34,587 bases of DNA from an uncultured Patescibacteria group bacterium (GTDB taxonomy: Bacteria; Patescibacteriota; JACMRA01). This document shows, piece by piece, positions 5,104 through 34,155 of the stretch (position 1 is its first letter; every line of letters starts with the position of its first letter). Under the pieces are notes generated by a model that was given only the letters and a program-made list of their open reading frames with translations, was not told the origin of the DNA and made no database searches. Location of the stretch: NCBI GenBank assembly GCA_938041505.1, contig CALITC010000012.1, forward strand, positions 1 through 34,587, read 5' to 3'. The position numbers and the translations under genes are program-made.

Positions 5104-7665
5104 CTACTCAATAACAAGGTTTGCACTAAAATTATAGAAATCGTAATCGTATGGTAATGACTGATTGCACCATATACTTAGCTCGTCATCTTTTACCAAG
5201 TTTATATTTACCGGACAGCTCGGTTGGTTAAGCCAAGCAGGAAAACCTGTATAGAGGCGCTTATCTTCGGTGAAGAATTCAGCTTTGAGTTGAGTAATTG
5301 GAGCTGAGCTCAATTTGGTACGCTGTAACTCTACTGATCCATTGTCAATTTTGAGATTTATGTTCAGGGGTAAATCGCTCCAAATATCTCTGCGCACACT
5401 AGTCGTTTTGAATTCTGAAGAATATTCTAATTCCGAAGGTTTGATCAACTCGTTGTAGCTATCTTTATCTAGCACTTCAATCTCTTTTGTGGCTAGAACT
5501 TCTGTTCCTTGAGTTGCGGTTATTGTATACTCTCCTGGAGCGATAGAATTAGGTAAATCAATATCAAACTCTGTAGATCGGCCAGTATCAGTTATAAGAA
5601 CGAGAGGTTTGCTGTATTTTAGTGTATCTGTATACACTTGCTCACCTTGATCGAGTATTTCTATCTCCACCTCCTCTACCTCTATCTTCTCTCGAGTTAA
5701 ATATATCTCTTGTGCCTCATTGCCTTGATTAAAATAAATATTGAATTTTGAGCCTTGTTCAACCGAAGAAGACCCTTCGAGCGAATACTCTAGGTCACGC
5801 CTAAAATCGTATTTATCCGCTGATTCCTGGCGACTCCAAACAGTCTTGTTGTCAAACTCCTCTAATAGAGAGTACTTCTTTTGGAGGGCATCATACGCAG
5901 GCTCTTTGATATTGTCTAACTTCGTAGCTACCACAACATCAACCTCTTTGGCATGTAAGATATCTACAAAAGTATTGAAATACTGAGGCTCTTTTTGCAT
6001 GCCGGCCAAGGTGTACATTTCTTGGGCATAGGTACCAAGTCCTCCTCCAAGAACCCAGCGCAACTTATCTTCACCGCGATCGTAATTATACTTCGAAGTG
6101 AATATTGCAAATTCACGCTGATCTATGTAAAACTCAGTATCGGTATACCATTCGAATATTTCGATCTGATCTTTATCAATAGAATCTAAAATAGACGCAA
6201 GTTCAGTGTCATATGGAAGGGTTTCTCTAATAGGGTCTTGCCAGCCAGCATTCACAAATATTGGTAAATATATGAGTAAGCCAGCTGATACAATGTTGAC
6301 TAAGCGAAAAGCACTTACTTTGTACGACTTAGCTTTAGCAGCGAGCCCATTGTATGCATAATTCGCTAATATTCCAAAAGCTACTAGGAAACTAAAAAAT
6401 CCGGTCAGCGGCAACCTCCATATTGTCCTTATTGCATTTAGTGGGTAATATAACTTATTTACCAATAAATATGGAAAGGGAACACTATAATATACTTTTT
6501 GCGGGCTTTTGAAGAATGGCCCTATTGATACGATATACAAAAAGACAAATACTAAACCATAGGTCAGAAATGTTCTGTGTTTGAGACTCTTGTTTTTTAT
6601 TGCTTTGATCAAAGCATAAATGATGACGGCACTTACTATGTAGAAGCCTACATTGGATAAAAAATCTGGATAGTTAAACGGCTTAATAGAGGTCTGTGCA
6701 ATTGACTCAATATACCTCCCTTCTTGAGGGCCATTTATCCTGATATATAATTTGGCAGCAGGGACAGCAATAATCCTGACAAATCCATAGCTTATAGTGT
6801 TAAATCCACCAGCAATCACAGCATTAATATCTCTAATTGAGTTAAGAGTAACACTTGCTTCAATGCTGCGCAATGCTACAGGTATAAGCAAACCTATTTG
6901 AGTAAGGGTTATACAGAGAATGGCAATCAGGGTGCGCCACAATACTTTTAGGTTTTTAATAATATGCGGTATCTGAAACATAGCCCAAGAGACCAATAAT
7001 AGCCCTGCAAATACAATAACATGCCATGTAGAGAATAGAATCGAAGCGAGGCTAACAGCATACACAATATACCATCCAAATACCTGTTTTTTTGATGATA
7101 ATGATCTTAGTAACTTCTCCAAAGATAGTATTATAAATGGCAAACCGAAATAGAGAAAGGCATGTAAATGCTGCGAATATAATATCTTATAGCCATGAGT
7201 AACGGGAATTAACTGCACTAGCGAAAAACTAAGCCATTTGTTGCCTGTGTAGTGCTTGATCAAGTAATACATCCCCACTTGTAGTACATAGAGATTGAAA
7301 AATATTAAGCCATTGAATGACGTAGTGAAATTCCCAGTAAGCTTGTAGAATGCGCCAAAAATTACACTTGGAAAATAGCTGAACTCGTTGGCTCCAATTG
7401 TCGAACCATACCAGGTGTATTGATTGATGTCAGGACTATACAACTCTCCATTAGACCAATCCAAAAGATTTTGAAAGTAGACTAGTACATTTTGGAATGA
7501 ACTTCCTCCTGTGGCTGTATGAGTTCCAAAATTATTGAAGATATTTGGATAAAGCCAGTACTTGTGAATAAGAAATGAACCAAGTATAACGAGCAATATT
7601 TCGACGATAGTTTTTAACCAAGGACTAAACTGGTAATTCTTTTTTCTTAAAGGGAGTGCGAACAT
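5104..7665 (-). CDS. Large polytopic membrane protein, GT-C/YfhO-like architecture
   Basis: This 853-residue protein has about 11-12 membrane helices in the first 480 residues. They begin with one at about 17-37, with an extracytoplasmic loop after it (about 38-95), and end near residue 475. A soluble extracytoplasmic part of about 375 residues follows, with a segment resembling a catalytic-partner domain (about 485-620) and beta-rich repeats (about 650-750). The many-helix N-terminus plus large exported C-terminus resembles GT-C type glycosyltransferases and YfhO-like proteins, which act on lipid-linked sugars at the outer membrane face. I see no decisive GT-C Asp/Glu pair, so the reaction is not assigned. 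It is one gene with its own promoter (7733-7705), 112 bp downstream of rpsO. Confidence 0.75.
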   Translation of the reverse strand: MFALPLRKKNYQFSPWLKTIVEILLVILGSFLIHKYWLYPNIFNNFGTHTATGGSSFQNVLVYFQNLLDWSNGELYSPDINQYTWYGSTIGANEFSYFPSVIFGAFYKLTGNFTTSFNGLIFFNLYVLQVGMYYLIKHYTGNKWLSFSLVQLIPVTHGYKILYSQHLHAFLYFGLPFIILSLEKLLRSLSSKKQVFGWYIVYAVSLASILFSTWHVIVFAGLLLVSWAMFQIPHIIKNLKVLWRTLIAILCITLTQIGLLIPVALRSIEASVTLNSIRDINAVIAGGFNTISYGFVRIIAVPAAKLYIRINGPQEGRYIESIAQTSIKPFNYPDFLSNVGFYIVSAVIIYALIKAIKNKSLKHRTFLTYGLVFVFLYIVSIGPFFKSPQKVYYSVPFPYLLVNKLYYPLNAIRTIWRLPLTGFFSFLVAFGILANYAYNGLAAKAKSYKVSAFRLVNIVSAGLLIYLPIFVNAGWQDPIRETLPYDTELASILDSIDKDQIEIFEWYTDTEFYIDQREFAIFTSKYNYDRGEDKLRWVLGGGLGTYAQEMYTLAGMQKEPQYFNTFVDILHAKEVDVVVATKLDNIKEPAYDALQKKYSLLEEFDNKTVWSRQESADKYDFRRDLEYSLEGSSSVEQGSKFNIYFNQGNEAQEIYLTREKIEVEEVEIEILDQGEQVYTDTLKYSKPLVLITDTGRSTEFDIDLPNSIAPGEYTITATQGTEVLATKEIEVLDKDSYNELIKPSELEYSSEFKTTSVRRDIWSDLPLNINLKIDNGSVELQRTKLSSAPITQLKAEFFTEDKRLYTGFPAWLNQPSCPVNINLVKDDELSIWCNQSLPYDYDFYNFSANLVIE

Positions 7666-7704
7666 AGGGATTTACTTGATCTAATCGCTGTATATTTGTA
7701 TTAG

Positions 7705-7733
7705 ACAATAACCATGAATATATATTTTGTCAA
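7705..7733 (-). promoter_or_regulatory. Promoter of the 853-aa membrane protein gene
   Basis: TTGACA (7733-7728), 17 nt, TATTGT (7710-7705). The -35 box is joined to the T-run of the rpsO terminator (TTTTTGACA). The leader to the ATG at 7665 is about 35 nt. Confidence 0.55.
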
Positions 7734-7772
7734 AAAGACACGCACAAGAGATTAAACTTGTGCGTGTCTTTT
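7733..7772 (-). terminator. Strong rho-independent terminator of lemA-rpsO
   Basis: A perfect 16-bp stem (7733-7748 with 7757-7772, AAAAGACACGCACAAG and its complement) encloses an 8-nt loop. Read on the minus strand it ends in five T. It lies 16 bp past the rpsO stop codon. Confidence 0.9.
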
Positions 7773-7788
7773 AATGAAATTTAATTAA

Positions 7789-8061
7789 CTAACCTTTGAG
7801 GTTGTTTGCAGAGATAACTTTCTTGTATCTAGACAGTGATACTGACTTGAGGTAATTGAGTAGTGCTTTTCTTTTACCAACTTTCTTAAGTAGCCCTCTT
7901 CGAGAACTGTAATCCTTGGGATTTGTCTTAAGGTGTTTGGTTAAGTGAGCTATACTCTGGGTTAATAGTGCGATTTGAGCTTCAGGAGAACCGGTATCGG
8001 TTTTATGAATCTGAGCTTTTGTTAAAACTGTTTGCTTATTTTTTAGGTTGATTTTGGCCAT
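7789..8061 (-). CDS. rpsO: 30S ribosomal protein S15
   Basis: This 90-residue protein of normal S15 length binds the central domain of 16S rRNA. Diagnostic segments are KTDTGSPEAQIALLT in the first third, HLKTNPKDYSSRRGLLKKVGKRKALL in the middle and YLKS...Y at the end of the last helix. In many bacteria rpsO precedes pnp. Here it is the second gene of a two-gene unit with lemA, starting 9 nt after the lemA stop, and is followed by a strong terminator. No Shine-Dalgarno is visible. Translation may be coupled to lemA because of the short gap. Confidence 0.97.
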   Translation of the reverse strand: MAKINLKNKQTVLTKAQIHKTDTGSPEAQIALLTQSIAHLTKHLKTNPKDYSSRRGLLKKVGKRKALLNYLKSVSLSRYKKVISANNLKG

Positions 8062-28998: not shown

Positions 28999-31900
28999 AT
29001 GACGAAAGATACTAAGCACACTAAGGCTACAACTTCTAATGAATCGGCTCATGAGAAGAAGACTGACAGTCACTACAAAGCCAAAACAACCCACAAGACG
29101 GCTACCACTCACCACAAGCACGATGTTGCCACCGACGGTGTAGAAAAATTTACCTACCCTGCTGGCGATATGGAGCGAATTAACGACTCGGTGCTTGACG
29201 ATGATGGGTATATCAAAGCATCAGGTGTTAAGGTGCTTAGAAAAGGTGACAAAGTAAATACCGAATATAATAAAGATACTATGTCTGATAAAGAAACCTC
29301 AAAAAAACCAACAATATTGGGACGCAAGCCATCTGCAAAAAAAGGCGAGAGTATAGCCAAGCTCCGTAAAAAAGTCGGCTTCTCTTGGAAGCGATTTGGA
29401 CGTAGATTGTTACTTGCTGGTATTGTATTTGGAGTAATATTTATTGTAGGAGCTAGTATTGCTGCTGCTTACTTGATCGACATCTGGAACCAAACCCAAG
29501 ATGTCGACCTAGCCTCTCAACCTACTGAAAGTAGTATAGTTTATGCACGTGATGGAGAGACTATTCTCTTCGAGTTCTATGGCGAAGAGCGCCGGGAGGT
29601 TGTTCCGTTCGAGCAGATTCCTCGTAACATGCAGCTGGCCATAATTGCACTAGAAGATGAGAACTACTACTTTAATGAAACTGGTATTCCTTGGAAAAAC
29701 ATCGCTGGAGCCGCCATAAAGTGTTTACAGGGAAATGCTGAGGAATGTCGTGGAGGCTCTGGACTATCACAACAATATATTAAGAACCTTACAGGTGAGA
29801 ATGATAGAACAGTTTCTCGTAAAATTCGTGAACTTTTCACGGCTTTGAGACTCAATAACGAAAAGAATAAAGAGGAGATTCTAGCTCTATATCTTAATCA
29901 AGTACCGTTCGGTCGCAACGCTTACGGTGTGCAGGAAGCTAGCCGCTCATACTTCGATAAAGAAGTTGAAGATTTGGCTACAAGCGAGGCGTGTCTACTT
30001 GCATCTTTGGTTCAAAAACCATCTGCGTTTGATTCGGCGATCCGAGCTCAAGCCGGTGAAAGTTGGGAAGAGCTACTAGCTAGAAAGAATAGCTGCCTTG
30101 AAAAAATGAGAACTCTTAGCCTTGAAGGACCTGGTACGGAGCCATTTTTAGATACTGATGAAAAATTACTGGTTAGACAGGAGCAAGAGCTTAATTTTAG
30201 CGACAATGTAGACGAATATCCTTTTCCTCATTTTAGAGACTATATTCGTAAAGAACTACGTAGATTCAATATCTCTGAACAAGCTCTTTATAGCAGGGGA
30301 TACCGTATTGTCACAACAATTGATCCAGCAATCCAAAGATCTGCAGAAGAGTCTGTAGCCGCAAATTATGAGAGCGCAGTGGTCGCAAATGGTGGTAACA
30401 ACGCCGCAGCGGTAATCTTAGATGGACCCACTGGTGAAATCATTGCTATGGTGGGCTCTGCAGACTACGATAATGAGGAAATAGATGGACAGGTTAATAT
30501 TGTGACCTCACCTCAACAGCCTGGGTCTAGTATTAAGCCATATGTATATCTAACAGACTTTTTACAAGGTTTTAACCCTGCGACAGTGGTTCTCGATGCA
30601 AAAATGGACTTTGGATACGGAGGTTTTACTCCAAAGAACTTTACAGATCGCAACAATGGTTTGGTTACAATTCGACAATCTTTGCAGTCTTCGTTTAACA
30701 TTCCTGCAGTAAAAGGCGCCTTTTTAGCAGCTGGGGACACCCCTCCAGAGGAGTTGAATACAAACCAGGAGGTAGAAAATCTAGGACTCAATGGTATAAA
30801 TACCGTAATTGATACTACAAAAAAGCTTGGCTTAGAGTATCCTTTTGAAGAAAACTGTTTTGTCAGTACTGCTATTGGTGGTTGTGAGGTGACGATGCTT
30901 TCGCATGCCACAGCTTTGAATACTATCGCTCAAGAAGGTAATCGAAAAACAGCAACACCATTTATTAGCATTGTGGATTCGAAGACCGGGGAAGATGTGT
31001 ATAAAAATATCCAAGAAAGTGACTCTCAGGTATACCCAGTTATCGACGAAGTTATTGATGCACGTTATGCTCGCCAGCTTAGTAACGTTCTTAGCGATTC
31101 GAATGCACGTTACCCTACATTTTGCGGTAGAGGTTCTCGATGTAATTTGGCTTCTAGGCTAGACCTGATTGACGAAGGTTGGGATGGTGACAACAAAGTT
31201 GCAGCAAAGACAGGGACTACAGATGAAATTCGCGATACTTGGACAGTTGGTTACTCCCCACTCTATACAGTCACTGCTTGGGTTGGTAATACCACAAATG
31301 AGCCTATGTTTAGAGATACTATCTCAGCAAACTCTGCCGGAGCAATCTGGAAAGATATTATGGTAAAGCTTCACGAAGGAAAAGAAAAAAGCGGGTTTAG
31401 TAGAGATGGCTTAGAAGAAGTTGGTCTCAATCCTTCAAGCGGCTTACTAGGAAGTGGAGGGGCTGAGCTACTTACATCTGAACAAAAGCAGATTCTAGAA
31501 GATGCTGCCACAAGACTGAACAGTAACAACTACGATGCTAGTAAAAATACGATCTTCCAAAACCGGTCTGTGGTTATTTCCCAAAGATTACGAATCAACA
31601 GATTGGATGGTAAGCTTGCAGTTGAAGGTAAAACTCTTCCTGAGTTCATTGAAGAGCGAACATATACACAAATCCTACCTGAGTTCCCAGTTGGTGAATG
31701 GAAAACAACAGCCCAGGCCTATAACAGAAACAATGCAAGACCACCTACTGAATTCTCTAACCAAGACCAGATTAGTGAGTCGAGCAACAAGCCGCGGATT
31801 ACTACCAATGTTGTAGCAAACTCTCAAGCACCAGGTAATATCGTCTTACAAGCTCAAGCCACTGGAAATAATAACAAAACCATAACTTCTTCTGAGATAT

Positions 31901-32367
31901 TTATTGATGGCAATTTGGTTGCTTCTGATTCAGATGGCGAGGTGTTGTTTAATACTAGCGGCGTTGATGGTGGTAAGAGACAGGTTCGACTTCGAGCGGT
32001 GGATTCATTTGGTGCTACCGAAGAAAGGACTTTTGATAACGTAGACTTTGATGGTGAAGAAGAAGTGGAGAGTCCGGCTGGAGTTACTATAAACAGTCCA
32101 AGCTCAACTTCAATTTCCAGTCCGACTATTGCCTTGAGTATAGAATCAACTGCCGACTTCCAACCTCTCCCTACTCTTATTTTGAGACAAGGGGTTGTGC
32201 AACGAGAATGCCAAGCGATCAAAGGTGGTAATACATATGCTTGTGAGATTAGCACAACCGGCTTTATACCAACTGTCGATGACGAAACCAAGGCTGTCAT
32301 TGAATTTATAGACAACTCTGATAGAAATCTCACCGCCAACCCTAGAAGTATCAACTTAACTCTCTAG
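28999..32367 (+). CDS. Class A penicillin-binding protein (GT51 transglycosylase plus transpeptidase)
   Basis: This 1122-residue bifunctional peptidoglycan synthase has a cytoplasmic His/Lys/Thr-rich region (1-130), a membrane helix (about 136-160) and then a GT51 domain. The GT51 domain has catalytic Glu219 in LAIIALEDENYYF, RGGSGLSQQYIKNL, and LNQVPFGRNAYGVQEASRSY. The transpeptidase has SSIK at 510-513 (Ser510, Lys513), SFN at 565-567 and KTGT at 737-740. The last 230 residues contain an Ig-like segment (ITSSEIFIDGNLVASDSDGE) and a beta-rich Ser/Pro stretch, probably binding the wall. All catalytic motifs are intact. The long basic N-terminus is unusual and could contact cytoplasmic partners or DNA. 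It is transcribed alone and would work with mltG. Confidence 0.95.
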   Translation: MTKDTKHTKATTSNESAHEKKTDSHYKAKTTHKTATTHHKHDVATDGVEKFTYPAGDMERINDSVLDDDGYIKASGVKVLRKGDKVNTEYNKDTMSDKETSKKPTILGRKPSAKKGESIAKLRKKVGFSWKRFGRRLLLAGIVFGVIFIVGASIAAAYLIDIWNQTQDVDLASQPTESSIVYARDGETILFEFYGEERREVVPFEQIPRNMQLAIIALEDENYYFNETGIPWKNIAGAAIKCLQGNAEECRGGSGLSQQYIKNLTGENDRTVSRKIRELFTALRLNNEKNKEEILALYLNQVPFGRNAYGVQEASRSYFDKEVEDLATSEACLLASLVQKPSAFDSAIRAQAGESWEELLARKNSCLEKMRTLSLEGPGTEPFLDTDEKLLVRQEQELNFSDNVDEYPFPHFRDYIRKELRRFNISEQALYSRGYRIVTTIDPAIQRSAEESVAANYESAVVANGGNNAAAVILDGPTGEIIAMVGSADYDNEEIDGQVNIVTSPQQPGSSIKPYVYLTDFLQGFNPATVVLDAKMDFGYGGFTPKNFTDRNNGLVTIRQSLQSSFNIPAVKGAFLAAGDTPPEELNTNQEVENLGLNGINTVIDTTKKLGLEYPFEENCFVSTAIGGCEVTMLSHATALNTIAQEGNRKTATPFISIVDSKTGEDVYKNIQESDSQVYPVIDEVIDARYARQLSNVLSDSNARYPTFCGRGSRCNLASRLDLIDEGWDGDNKVAAKTGTTDEIRDTWTVGYSPLYTVTAWVGNTTNEPMFRDTISANSAGAIWKDIMVKLHEGKEKSGFSRDGLEEVGLNPSSGLLGSGGAELLTSEQKQILEDAATRLNSNNYDASKNTIFQNRSVVISQRLRINRLDGKLAVEGKTLPEFIEERTYTQILPEFPVGEWKTTAQAYNRNNARPPTEFSNQDQISESSNKPRITTNVVANSQAPGNIVLQAQATGNNNKTITSSEIFIDGNLVASDSDGEVLFNTSGVDGGKRQVRLRAVDSFGATEERTFDNVDFDGEEEVESPAGVTINSPSSTSISSPTIALSIESTADFQPLPTLILRQGVVQRECQAIKGGNTYACEISTTGFIPTVDDETKAVIEFIDNSDRNLTANPRSINLTL

Positions 32368-32386: not shown

Positions 32387-33979
32387 TTATCTAGACTGAA
32401 TATGTTTGGAGTGGATGATCTTTAATATATGGGTTGCAAGGATAAGAGGTTTAAGACTTTCTCTACTCTGGAGATTGTTTTTTTTTGTTTCGAGATCGGC
32501 TATTAGTTTTGAAATAGGTATACCTTCCCTAGTGGAGTAATTAAGGGTGTCGCTCAAAAAATTAAAGACTATGGATGCTTGAGCTTGGTTTTTTTCTAGA
32601 CTACCACTTATACCACTAACGAGACCATTAATGTACTCCACCGTGAAGAAAACCCTGCCAAAATATGTTGTTTGCAAGTTGTACTCTTCAAAATGTGAAT
32701 TGAGTATGAGCTTATTTTGAACCACGGTTTGTGGAAGATTGGAACCTTTTTCTGCACGGTTTAAATGAGGCTCTATGGGCCTACCCTCGATTTTTAGATT
32801 AGGTATCGGATGGAACTCTAACTTAAGTGGATTTTTTAGATTGTTTAGCAGGGTTTCATAGATTATGTGAGTATTTTTTCCTTCAACAAAGGCATGAATT
32901 ACTTTGCAATCATTTACCTTCTGGCACATTGCCGAAATATCTTGATCTGTATTGTATGACTTTACCGAATAAATACCTGCTTGCTTAGCATTATCCCCAA
33001 GTAAGACTACAATGTGCATAGTAGATTCATTCACTTGATCTGGCACCACCCTCTCAACAGGAGCTGGTTGCACAACCGGCATAGGAGACTCTGGGGTTTT
33101 GATATTTGCGCTGCTTGATGGAGCTTTGTCGTTTGATTCATCATCCAATAATGAGTTAAATAGTTTTTTGTATGGGCTCGCGTGTAAGGTCTCAGATATC
33201 GTAGCTATATCGGAATTTTCTACACTTACTTCCACTGCTTTAAATGGCGTTCTTTCCAATTTGGGTTTGGTTTGAGGTTGCTCTGCATAATCATCGAGCT
33301 GCTGCCATGAGGAGTTTTTTGGGAAATCTAATAAAGTTAGGTTTCTACGCTGATAGACTTGCCAATCAGAACCTTCTAGGCTAATTCTTTCTGCAAAATC
33401 AGTATACATTTTTGCCTCCTCTGTTACTGTATTGTAGAGCATATCATGAGCTCTAATTTTGTGCGGTTTGCAGTATTTTTTCCATGACAAGCAAGACCCT
33501 TTTTCCTCAGCCAAAGACTCGCTGGCTCGATATGCTGTGTTAGCAATATGGAAACCTAATTTCTTGATTTCTTCGTTGGTAGCCAATGGCTGAACTTTGT
33601 CCAAGTAAATCTCAAGTCCTTGAATAGAGACTTTTATTGCCCTGTAGTTAGATGCTATTTTCTGCGCATTTTCAACTAACTGGAGCTTATTAATTACATC
33701 ATCGAGGTATCGAATGGCAATTTCTACGGTTTTCTCCAGCTTATCGGTATCTAACTTACCATTGAGGATATGTTCTGGGAGGTTAATATATCCTCGCGGA
33801 GGTCTAAACTCTTTAATTGTTCGAGTTGAGCCAATTAATTCTTCGGTAGCCTGGTCGAGAAAAAATGTTTTATCTAGGTACAGATCGCGGTATTTTTGCT
33901 GCCAAAATGACGCCAACTCGGGCGTAGGCTCGCTACTTGAAGCAACTTCCACACTCTTGAGCTGTATATTTGTTAACAT
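32387..33979 (-). CDS. Protein derived from class II ribonucleotide reductase, catalytic residues lost
   Basis: This 530-residue protein follows, in order, the second half of NrdJ-type ribonucleotide reductase. It has RGYINLPEHILNGKLD (residues 62-77; family CNLGSINLxxFVxxGKID), IRYLDDVI (89-96; RFLDNVI), YRAIKVSIQGLEIYL (112-126; RRIGLGVMGFADLL) and SLAEEKG (155-161; ELAxEKG). Next is RRNLTLLDFPKNSSW (211-225; RNATLLTIAPTGTIS). A disordered Pro/Ser linker (about 285-315) follows, then a stretch like the TSCPD domain (about 437-500, YFGRVFFTVEYINGLVSGIS). The Cys of CNLGSINL is Pro-Arg here, the N-x-C-x-E radical-site motif is not seen and the first half is missing. Function is therefore not nucleotide reduction; an allosteric or binding role is a guess. 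The ATG at 33979 is preferred over 34012. Confidence 0.6.
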   Translation of the reverse strand: MLTNIQLKSVEVASSSEPTPELASFWQQKYRDLYLDKTFFLDQATEELIGSTRTIKEFRPPRGYINLPEHILNGKLDTDKLEKTVEIAIRYLDDVINKLQLVENAQKIASNYRAIKVSIQGLEIYLDKVQPLATNEEIKKLGFHIANTAYRASESLAEEKGSCLSWKKYCKPHKIRAHDMLYNTVTEEAKMYTDFAERISLEGSDWQVYQRRNLTLLDFPKNSSWQQLDDYAEQPQTKPKLERTPFKAVEVSVENSDIATISETLHASPYKKLFNSLLDDESNDKAPSSSANIKTPESPMPVVQPAPVERVVPDQVNESTMHIVVLLGDNAKQAGIYSVKSYNTDQDISAMCQKVNDCKVIHAFVEGKNTHIIYETLLNNLKNPLKLEFHPIPNLKIEGRPIEPHLNRAEKGSNLPQTVVQNKLILNSHFEEYNLQTTYFGRVFFTVEYINGLVSGISGSLEKNQAQASIVFNFLSDTLNYSTREGIPISKLIADLETKKNNLQSRESLKPLILATHILKIIHSKHIQSR

Positions 33980-34037
33980 TATATTCCTAGGTAAGCATAA
34001 ATAATGGAGCATGTCTACCAGGTATAAATCCTACAAA

Positions 34038-34082
34038 CAGTATATCCCCTCTGCTAATTGTATTAACAAGGGGGATATACTG
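34038..34082 (-). terminator. Terminator of tRNA-Thr overlapping its CCA end
   Basis: CAGTATATCCCC and GGGGATATACTG form a perfect 12-bp stem (34082-34071 with 34049-34038) with a 21-nt loop, followed by TTTGT on the minus strand. The stem begins at the last two bases of the encoded CCA. Confidence 0.7.
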
Positions 34083-34155
34083 GAGCCGAATGTCAGGATT
34101 GAACTGACGACCTGCGGTTTACAAAACCGATGCTCTACCACTGAGCTAATTCGGC
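34081..34155 (-). tRNA. tRNA-Thr (anticodon TGT)
   Basis: This is a 75-nt minus-strand tRNA. The acceptor stem is GCCGAAT/ATTCGGC, the D arm contains AGCTCAGTGGTAGAGC, the anticodon loop TTTGTAA gives anticodon TGT, and the T arm is GTCAG-TTCAATC-CTGAC. The discriminator is T and CCA is encoded. The outermost pair of the anticodon stem (T-C) is mismatched. Confidence 0.95.

Follow-up and report, generated by a model that had tools for sequence, protein, structure and literature searches.

The window analysed here is the whole of a 34,587-nucleotide contig (CALITC010000012.1) of an uncultured Patescibacteria group bacterium, one of 26 contigs in a 1.12-Mb draft genome with an estimated completeness of 69%; its GC content is 38.9%. 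Near one end it carries a gene on the reverse strand which, judged by its sequence, encodes a descendant of the class II ribonucleotide reductase (RNR) NrdJ without the residues that define catalysis. The product, referred to here as the pseudoenzyme, has an NrdJ-derived head, a Pro/Ser-rich linker and a TSCPD-like tail (Table 1). Genomes are denoted by G numbers and loci by L numbers; the window belongs to G000, and G000–G005 are the genomes of its taxonomic class.

Descent from class II ribonucleotide reductase

The Pfam RNR barrel profile PF02867 matches residues 75–240 of the 541-residue reading of the protein over profile positions 231–370 of 523, with E 5.2e-9 and a score of 35.7 bits, above the curated cut-off of 23.9. 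Of the 14 NCBIfam models listed, 13 are for RNR and fall on the same region (E 2e-11 to 0.047), and the fourteenth is unrelated (E 0.061). The RNR models all score far under their own cut-offs, as expected of a fragment. A single-sequence search of the PDB returned the class I enzyme 5im3 (1.3e-7) and the NrdJ structure 1xje (0.0046), and a profile of five orthologues reached PDB RNRs at E 9.5e-13 (5im3) and 1.3e-10. Homology to the RNR large-subunit superfamily is found in both sequence and fold. The original prediction, made from the DNA letters of the window, had proposed an NrdJ-derived protein with its blocks in order, and this is borne out.

The structure prediction of the window protein, made with a 13-row alignment, has a predicted local distance difference test score (pLDDT, by block) of 70–98 within residues 1–230, below 50 across most of 234–425 and 69–86 in the tail. 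All 50 of the 50 Foldseek matches listed are RNR large subunits, with 5im3 at 3.4e-7 and Thermotoga maritima NrdJ from 7.9e-7. The comparison with T. maritima NrdJ that had been proposed as a check gave matches in VIA-align, covering residues 1–242 or 1–234 of the model: chain 3o0n_B at Z 20.4 (216 residues aligned, rmsd 5.5) and 1xjk_B at Z 20.3 (209 aligned, rmsd 2.6). The model of the G002 orthologue is a fairer test of the fold because its alignment was built from the five orthologues alone. Its mean pLDDT is 52.7, with 68–89 by block in the first 130 residues, and it matches 3o0n_B at Z 15.9 (179 aligned, rmsd 2.7).

The closest true NrdJ found comes from Aphanocapsa (L088:5056-7002, with its TSCPD domain in a separate open reading frame (ORF) at 7002-7847). 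Among the ORFs searched, the five fuller orthologues and one piece of the G001 copy all have L088 as their top blastp match; the other G001 piece, N-terminal, matches L062/L052 best, L062 being an ordinary NrdJ. The genome holding L088 scores 99 bits with profile A1; the best other score is 62.7 bits among Patescibacteria outside the class (152 of 379 genomes matching) and 46 bits in the sampled phylum of G379 (43 of 117 genomes matching). Like the window protein, L088 has N-terminal helices, a GSL..RRN barrel segment, an F-x-x-W-x-D insert, and a TSCPD domain that continues into a corresponding extension. A six-row profile of the N-terminal segment, run against 425 ORFs, placed L088 best at 4.2e-5, followed by further frames read as NrdJ, with 0.064 for five shuffled sets. 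The insert between AEEKG and RRN (58–65 residues) matched L088 only (profile E 2.6e-6; next 0.27; shuffles 1.4), which points to an origin in one rare NrdJ subclass, of which L088 is the single true enzyme found. Taken together, the closest NrdJ and the subclass insert argue that descent is from class II rather than class I. Counting against this, the best PDB match is the class I enzyme 5im3, by sequence as by Foldseek rank; no L088-type enzyme was found in the PDB. Of the phage and plasmid NrdJs listed, the best are only ~27–31% identical to this Aphanocapsa NrdJ (L088:5056-7847).

A seven-row profile of the tail matched the TSCPD regions of true NrdJs with a best E of 5.8e-6, and the L088 TSCPD ORF at 3e-5; the best of five shuffled sets gave 0.038. 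The predicted TSCPD-like C-terminus thus holds at profile level, but the Pfam TSCPD family (PF12637) has no match in any of the six class genomes at 0.001. The domain contains one isolated Cys in each of G002, G003 and G004, and none in the window protein. Directly downstream of the pseudoenzyme gene in G002 lies a stand-alone TSCPD-like protein of 181 residues (L067:4648-5193, reverse strand; Pfam TSCPD 0.037, under the cut-off).

Loss of the catalytic residues

The landmarks of L088 are a first Cys (C87), NPCGE with C312, C323, and IAPTG at 489. From the family we take C87 to be the first redox Cys, C312 the radical Cys and C323 the second redox Cys. The window protein tracks L088 from ~36 to ~70, resumes at ~324, continues to ~487 (RRNSTVL) and departs before IAPTG. 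Two internal stretches are absent, and with them all three catalytic Cys, N-x-C-x-E and IAPTG. The finger-loop stretch with the radical-cysteine motif N-x-C-x-E is missing in the window protein and in the four aligned orthologues. Neither active-site redox Cys is in the window protein, C87 and C323 of L088 falling within the missing stretch, and the alignment to NrdJ ends after RRN-x-x-LL, before IAPTG and the C-terminal half of the barrel. On this alignment, one deletion runs from the first redox Cys through the radical-Cys loop and the second redox Cys, and the other takes out IAPTG and the remainder of the barrel. L088 keeps C87, N-P-C312-G-E, C323, IAPTG and a C-terminal Cys cluster; the window protein has none of them and has in addition a long disordered linker.

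Loss of the catalytic residues, NxCxE included, had been correctly read from the sequence at the outset, as had the disordered Pro/Ser linker (pLDDT below 50 for residues 234–341 and most of 356–425). Other details need revision. The Cys before GSINL is indeed gone, but it was lost together with its surroundings and not simply replaced, and IAPTG, listed earlier as retained, is absent. The N-terminal half of the barrel had been thought to be cut off; the N-terminal ~60 residues are NrdJ-derived (E 4e-5), and the protein is therefore an NrdJ with internal deletions rather than an N-terminal truncation.

Gene, start site and locus

The ATG at 33979 is the more likely start, ahead of the in-frame ATG at 34012, because an AGGAA sits 4 letters upstream of it and because the G002 and G005 orthologues begin, to within one residue, equally far from the conserved E-x-TPEL. 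The other five reading frames of the gene contain 21–48 stops each.

Table 1 Coordinates of the pseudoenzyme gene, its parts and the second group of dead NrdJ genes
Feature	Position	Strand	Basis or remark
Whole pseudoenzyme gene	32387..33979	-	530 aa from ATG 33979; in-frame ATG 34012 adds 11 aa (541 aa)
AGGAA, probable ribosome-binding site	33984..33988	-	sequence read
Residues 1-62, NrdJ N-terminal helical segment (E-x-TPEL..W...Y)	33794..33979	-	profile E 4e-5; block pLDDT 92-98
Residues 63-229, NrdJ barrel segment GYINL to RRNLTLL including Aphanocapsa-type insert	33293..33793	-	PF02867 (33293-33790), insert profile, structure Z 20
Residues 230-425, Pro/Ser-rich linker, mostly predicted disordered	32705..33292	-	pLDDT <50 for 234-341, 356-366, 368-373, 382-425
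Residues 319-381, short strand/helix patch, possible Nudix-like vestige (low confidence)	32837..33025	-	predicted secondary structure; orthologue Nudix comparison
Residues 426-530, TSCPD-like (IscU-like) C-terminal domain, no Cys	32390..32704	-	seven-row profile; block pLDDT 69-86 from residue 431
Dead NrdJ, G087	L201:3927-5552		
Dead NrdJ, G061	L202:7813-9441	-	
Dead NrdJ, G142	L206:3959-5821		

A tRNA-Thr gene (34081-34155) lies upstream of the pseudoenzyme gene, and a penicillin-binding protein (PBP) gene (28999-32367, forward strand) converges on it from the other side. The PBP neighbour is common to G000, G001 and G004 and the tRNA-Thr to G000 and G001; the locus therefore looks inherited and not mobile. 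In G001, a transposase-like gene (L071:5006-5848, reverse strand; by eye) lies upstream of the tRNA-Thr and the broken pseudoenzyme gene.

Orthologues in the class

The search of related genomes proposed in the original prediction found the gene in all six class genomes, whose assemblies are all incomplete (69–85%); the G001 copy is broken. Complete copies are 530 (window), 650 (G002), 637 (G004) and 948 (G003) residues long, and the G005 copy is open for 537 residues to the contig end. Five of the six are long uninterrupted frames, from separate assemblies. Across five aligned orthologues 35 columns are invariant, including G, RxLD, YRxSE, AEEKG and RR; the block order is beyond chance because it recurs with these invariant residues at 21–24% identity. 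Between G000 and G004, identity is 25% for the pseudoenzyme (31% over its RNR part) and 46%, 40% and 50% for the neighbours PBP1A, trigger factor and YidC, respectively.

The middle of the protein varies among orthologues. The G002 model matches the Tudor domain 6if4 (E 6e-3, TMt 0.76), probably over residues ~278–327, and G003 and G005 have sequence similar to this Tudor/SH3-like region (by eye). A middle stretch of G002, G003 and G004 appears Nudix-related in an hhalign comparison with Nudix proteins of the same class (P 6e-5, probability 65%). Among 30 column-shuffled controls the best P is 0.07, and three unrelated segments taken from these proteins give 0.053–0.63; the match drops to P 0.0033 once the window row is added. 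A Pfam scan of four orthologues gave no Tudor or Nudix family, with nothing for Nudix up to E 5, and a PDB profile search with the orthologue middle gave AriB alone, at 0.81. The Nudix box G-x5-E-x7-REUXEE was found neither in the window protein nor in the orthologues, with strict and relaxed patterns. From the profile comparison, Nudix ancestry of the orthologue middle is likely, a conclusion that we do not extend to the window protein.

Other ribonucleotide reductases in the class

In G000, PF02867 finds the pseudoenzyme, a single RNR large subunit truncated at contig ends, and nothing else. We read the cut subunit as class I, from its own sequence and from the NrdB in the genome. In G001–G005 the same profile finds the pseudoenzyme and, in four genomes, one class I-type large subunit. 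NrdB is present in five of the six genomes (G000–G004), each of which also has an RNR large subunit carrying N-x-C-x-E. G005 yielded neither, and there PF02867 matches the pseudoenzyme alone. No true NrdJ or second class II match was found by PF02867 in the six genomes, all incomplete. Since five of them carry class I-type NrdA/NrdB and none a recognisable true NrdJ, the pairing with a true NrdJ suggested in the original prediction is unlikely.

A second lineage of dead NrdJ

An examination of short frames among the matches across the phylum brought up a second dead NrdJ, present in all three genomes of another order: G087 and G061 (534 residues, 78% identical to each other), and G142 (a 621-residue frame). 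In an alignment with seven true NrdJs, the first Cys, the N, the radical Cys, the E, the second Cys and APTG are kept in seven of seven true enzymes; none of these positions survives in the three dead copies. By eye, the dead copies still show a GF/GYINL segment together with RFLDN or RFLNN. The gene order is ftsA-ftsZ-nrdR-dead gene-nrdD-nrdG in G087 and G142 and ftsZ-nrdR-dead gene-nrdD-nrdG in the G061 stretch, which suggests an RNR partner in this lineage. The G087 NrdD with its ATP-cone and the radical-SAM gene are confirmed by Pfam; nrdR, ftsA, ftsZ and the other copies were read by eye.

Between G087 and G061, the ratio of nonsynonymous to synonymous substitution rates (dN/dS, Nei-Gojobori) is 0.097 for the dead gene, 0.043 for nrdR, 0.038 for nrdD and 0.130 for nrdG, at dS values of 0.97–1.25, near saturation. 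In this one close pair, purifying selection maintains the dead gene with a strength similar to that on the activase gene. The tail profile of the window lineage matches G087 (4e-4) and G061 (5e-4), ahead of several true NrdJs (best shuffle 0.33; G142 unmatched); this similarity speaks mildly against independence of the two lineages. For G087, no Pfam TSCPD match was listed up to 0.1. The insert of the window lineage is not matched in the second (E 2.7–11), because of which the latter is taken as an independent case.

Survey of other genomes and phages

A PF02867 survey covered 126 genomes, 98 of them with a match; matches were listed to about E 7e-19, so that weaker dead copies may be missed. 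Of the 152 genomes matched by profile A1, 146 lie outside the class, and catalytic motifs were examined in a subset of these. Divergent PF02867 matches in G050 and G046 keep NPCGE. Tandem arrays of several NrdJ-type genes occur in single Patescibacteria genomes at L154 (G037), L155 (G017), L156 (G043), L158 (G070) and G147:C6, the last known from the PF02867 survey alone; the radical-Cys motif is present in the array copies examined. Tandem arrays were considered as a source of dead copies and mostly set aside: 20 of the 22 frames examined carry an N-x-C-G-E type motif, the two without it being those of G300, and the arrays are therefore mostly not dead NrdJs. The two G300 frames (L160:4702-9051; 303 and 1146 residues, RNR-like), in which a pattern search recognised no N-x-C-x-E, may represent an interruption by an intein or a further dead copy. 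Very long NrdJ frames were seen at L159 (G228, 1428 residues), G070:C39 (1234), G371:C7 (1454) and G362:C2 (1457); in G228 and G070, two barrel matches in one open frame suggest fused double NrdJs. An NrdJ in two unlinked pieces in G045 was rejected as a candidate, both pieces lying at contig ends, and is taken as one gene cut by assembly.

A phage origin was also rejected, a search of 50,697 phage records at E 1e-3 having returned no match to the window protein. A first scan of viral contigs gave four loci (L120–L123), of which L120 and L122 read as ordinary NrdJ barrel segments, and a second gave none. In PHROGs, two RNR families (4.5e-7 and 7e-7) and one family of unknown function (0.0044) were matched. 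PADLOC gave no match.

Relation to known systems

Inactive RNR homologues are on record in viruses. According to the part of PMC5469499 consulted, the beta-herpesvirus R1 homologues UL45 of human cytomegalovirus and M45 of murine cytomegalovirus have lost most catalytic residues and act by protein-protein interaction. Compared by concept only, these are viral proteins directed at host signalling, whereas the window protein is bacterial, of class II, internally deleted and equipped with a TSCPD tail. Passages of PMC4520616 describe Pseudomonas aeruginosa NrdJa/NrdJb as a split class II RNR whose barrel chain and C-terminal chain interact and are jointly active; for the window protein no active part was found. 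Passages of PMC9669993 and PMC5704485 connect oligomerisation of NrdJ with its IscU-like domain and its cysteine-rich tail. We equate this IscU-like domain with the TSCPD-like tail, an equation of our own, as these passages do not use the name TSCPD. The C-terminal zinc-finger and redox Cys described for NrdJ in the same sources are absent from the window protein.

The protein had at first been thought to be of an undescribed kind. This stands for bacteria and for class II, for which searches of the open-access literature listed no RNR pseudoenzyme, but not for RNR in general, given the viral R1 proteins in the passages of PMC5469499.

Interpretation

We lean towards the view that the protein is a non-catalytic binding or oligomerising pseudoenzyme, most likely tied to the cell's remaining RNR. 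The NrdJ-derived head would be a conserved recognition module that binds a partner, the TSCPD tail would provide self-association, the role proposed for the same domain in NrdJ (passages of PMC9669993 and PMC5704485), and the long variable linker would tether the two. The partner might, with less certainty, come from the cell's own deoxynucleoside triphosphate (dNTP) synthesis, here class I NrdA/NrdB, in which case the pseudoenzyme would tune the successor enzyme of NrdJ or determine its location. For the lineage of the window, an RNR partner is suggested by analogy with the second lineage only, where the position of the dead NrdJ between nrdR and nrdD-nrdG points likewise to a partner in dNTP synthesis. 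Several points weigh against this view. Partner and function are both inferred, and no RNR gene was seen adjoining the pseudoenzyme gene in the class, its neighbours in the window being the tRNA-Thr and the PBP gene. The pseudoenzyme diverges faster than its neighbour genes, divergence in the class is too high for an estimate of selection, and the G001 copy spans two contig ends with a frame break. The alignment behind the window model also held fragments of true NrdJ, which primes the match to NrdJ.

The absence of an adjoining RNR gene also speaks for an alternative, a pseudoenzyme with a job outside dNTP synthesis, whose head would serve as a protein- or nucleic-acid-binding platform for changing cargo domains (Tudor/SH3-like, Nudix-like). 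We consider this possible but the less probable of the two; it gains from the extra middle domains of the orthologues, Tudor/SH3-like in G002 and Nudix-related in G002, G003 and G004, and from the wide length range of the complete copies (530 to 948 residues), and loses from the RNR-gene neighbourhood of the second dead lineage and from the absence of Tudor or Nudix Pfam families in the four orthologues scanned and of a Nudix box. Rapid divergence, a variable middle and the broken G001 copy could instead mark a functionless, decaying remnant of nrdJ. This is improbable, as five of the six copies are long uninterrupted frames, the other frames of the window gene hold 21–48 stops, invariant residues are kept at 21–24% identity, and dN/dS in the second lineage is ~0.10; the G001 break itself may be a sequencing or assembly error, as suggested by a trigger-factor gene that is also broken on the same contig (by eye). 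Split class II RNRs do exist (passages of PMC4520616), and the Aphanocapsa relative has its TSCPD domain in a separate ORF, so one may ask whether the protein is one part of an active enzyme with the remainder elsewhere, or is trans-spliced; PF02867 detects no matching remainder of a class II enzyme in the six class genomes, and what is retained is not one half but lacks strands on either side, which leaves this very improbable. Least credible is an ordinary NrdJ damaged by misassembly, or a chance likeness: all genomes are drafts, but five separately recorded genomes share both deletions, and the profile and structure matches stand far above their controls.

The preferred reading, a binding pseudoenzyme tied to the remaining RNR, can tentatively be widened. 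On at least two occasions, Patescibacteria may have converted a discarded NrdJ into a dedicated subunit or regulator, itself without catalysis, of the successor RNR; that successor would be class I in the lineage of the window and class III in the order of G087. We offer this with some reserve. To our knowledge, no bacterium is known to control an RNR through an inactive relative. A match to PF02867 alone is no proof of a functional RNR. The gene is retained in spite of genomes of ~1 megabase. The idea can be put to a direct test in the second lineage, where the dead gene stands among genes for RNR and is under purifying selection. If a dead NrdJ does control a living RNR, this would be a new way of setting the dNTP supply.
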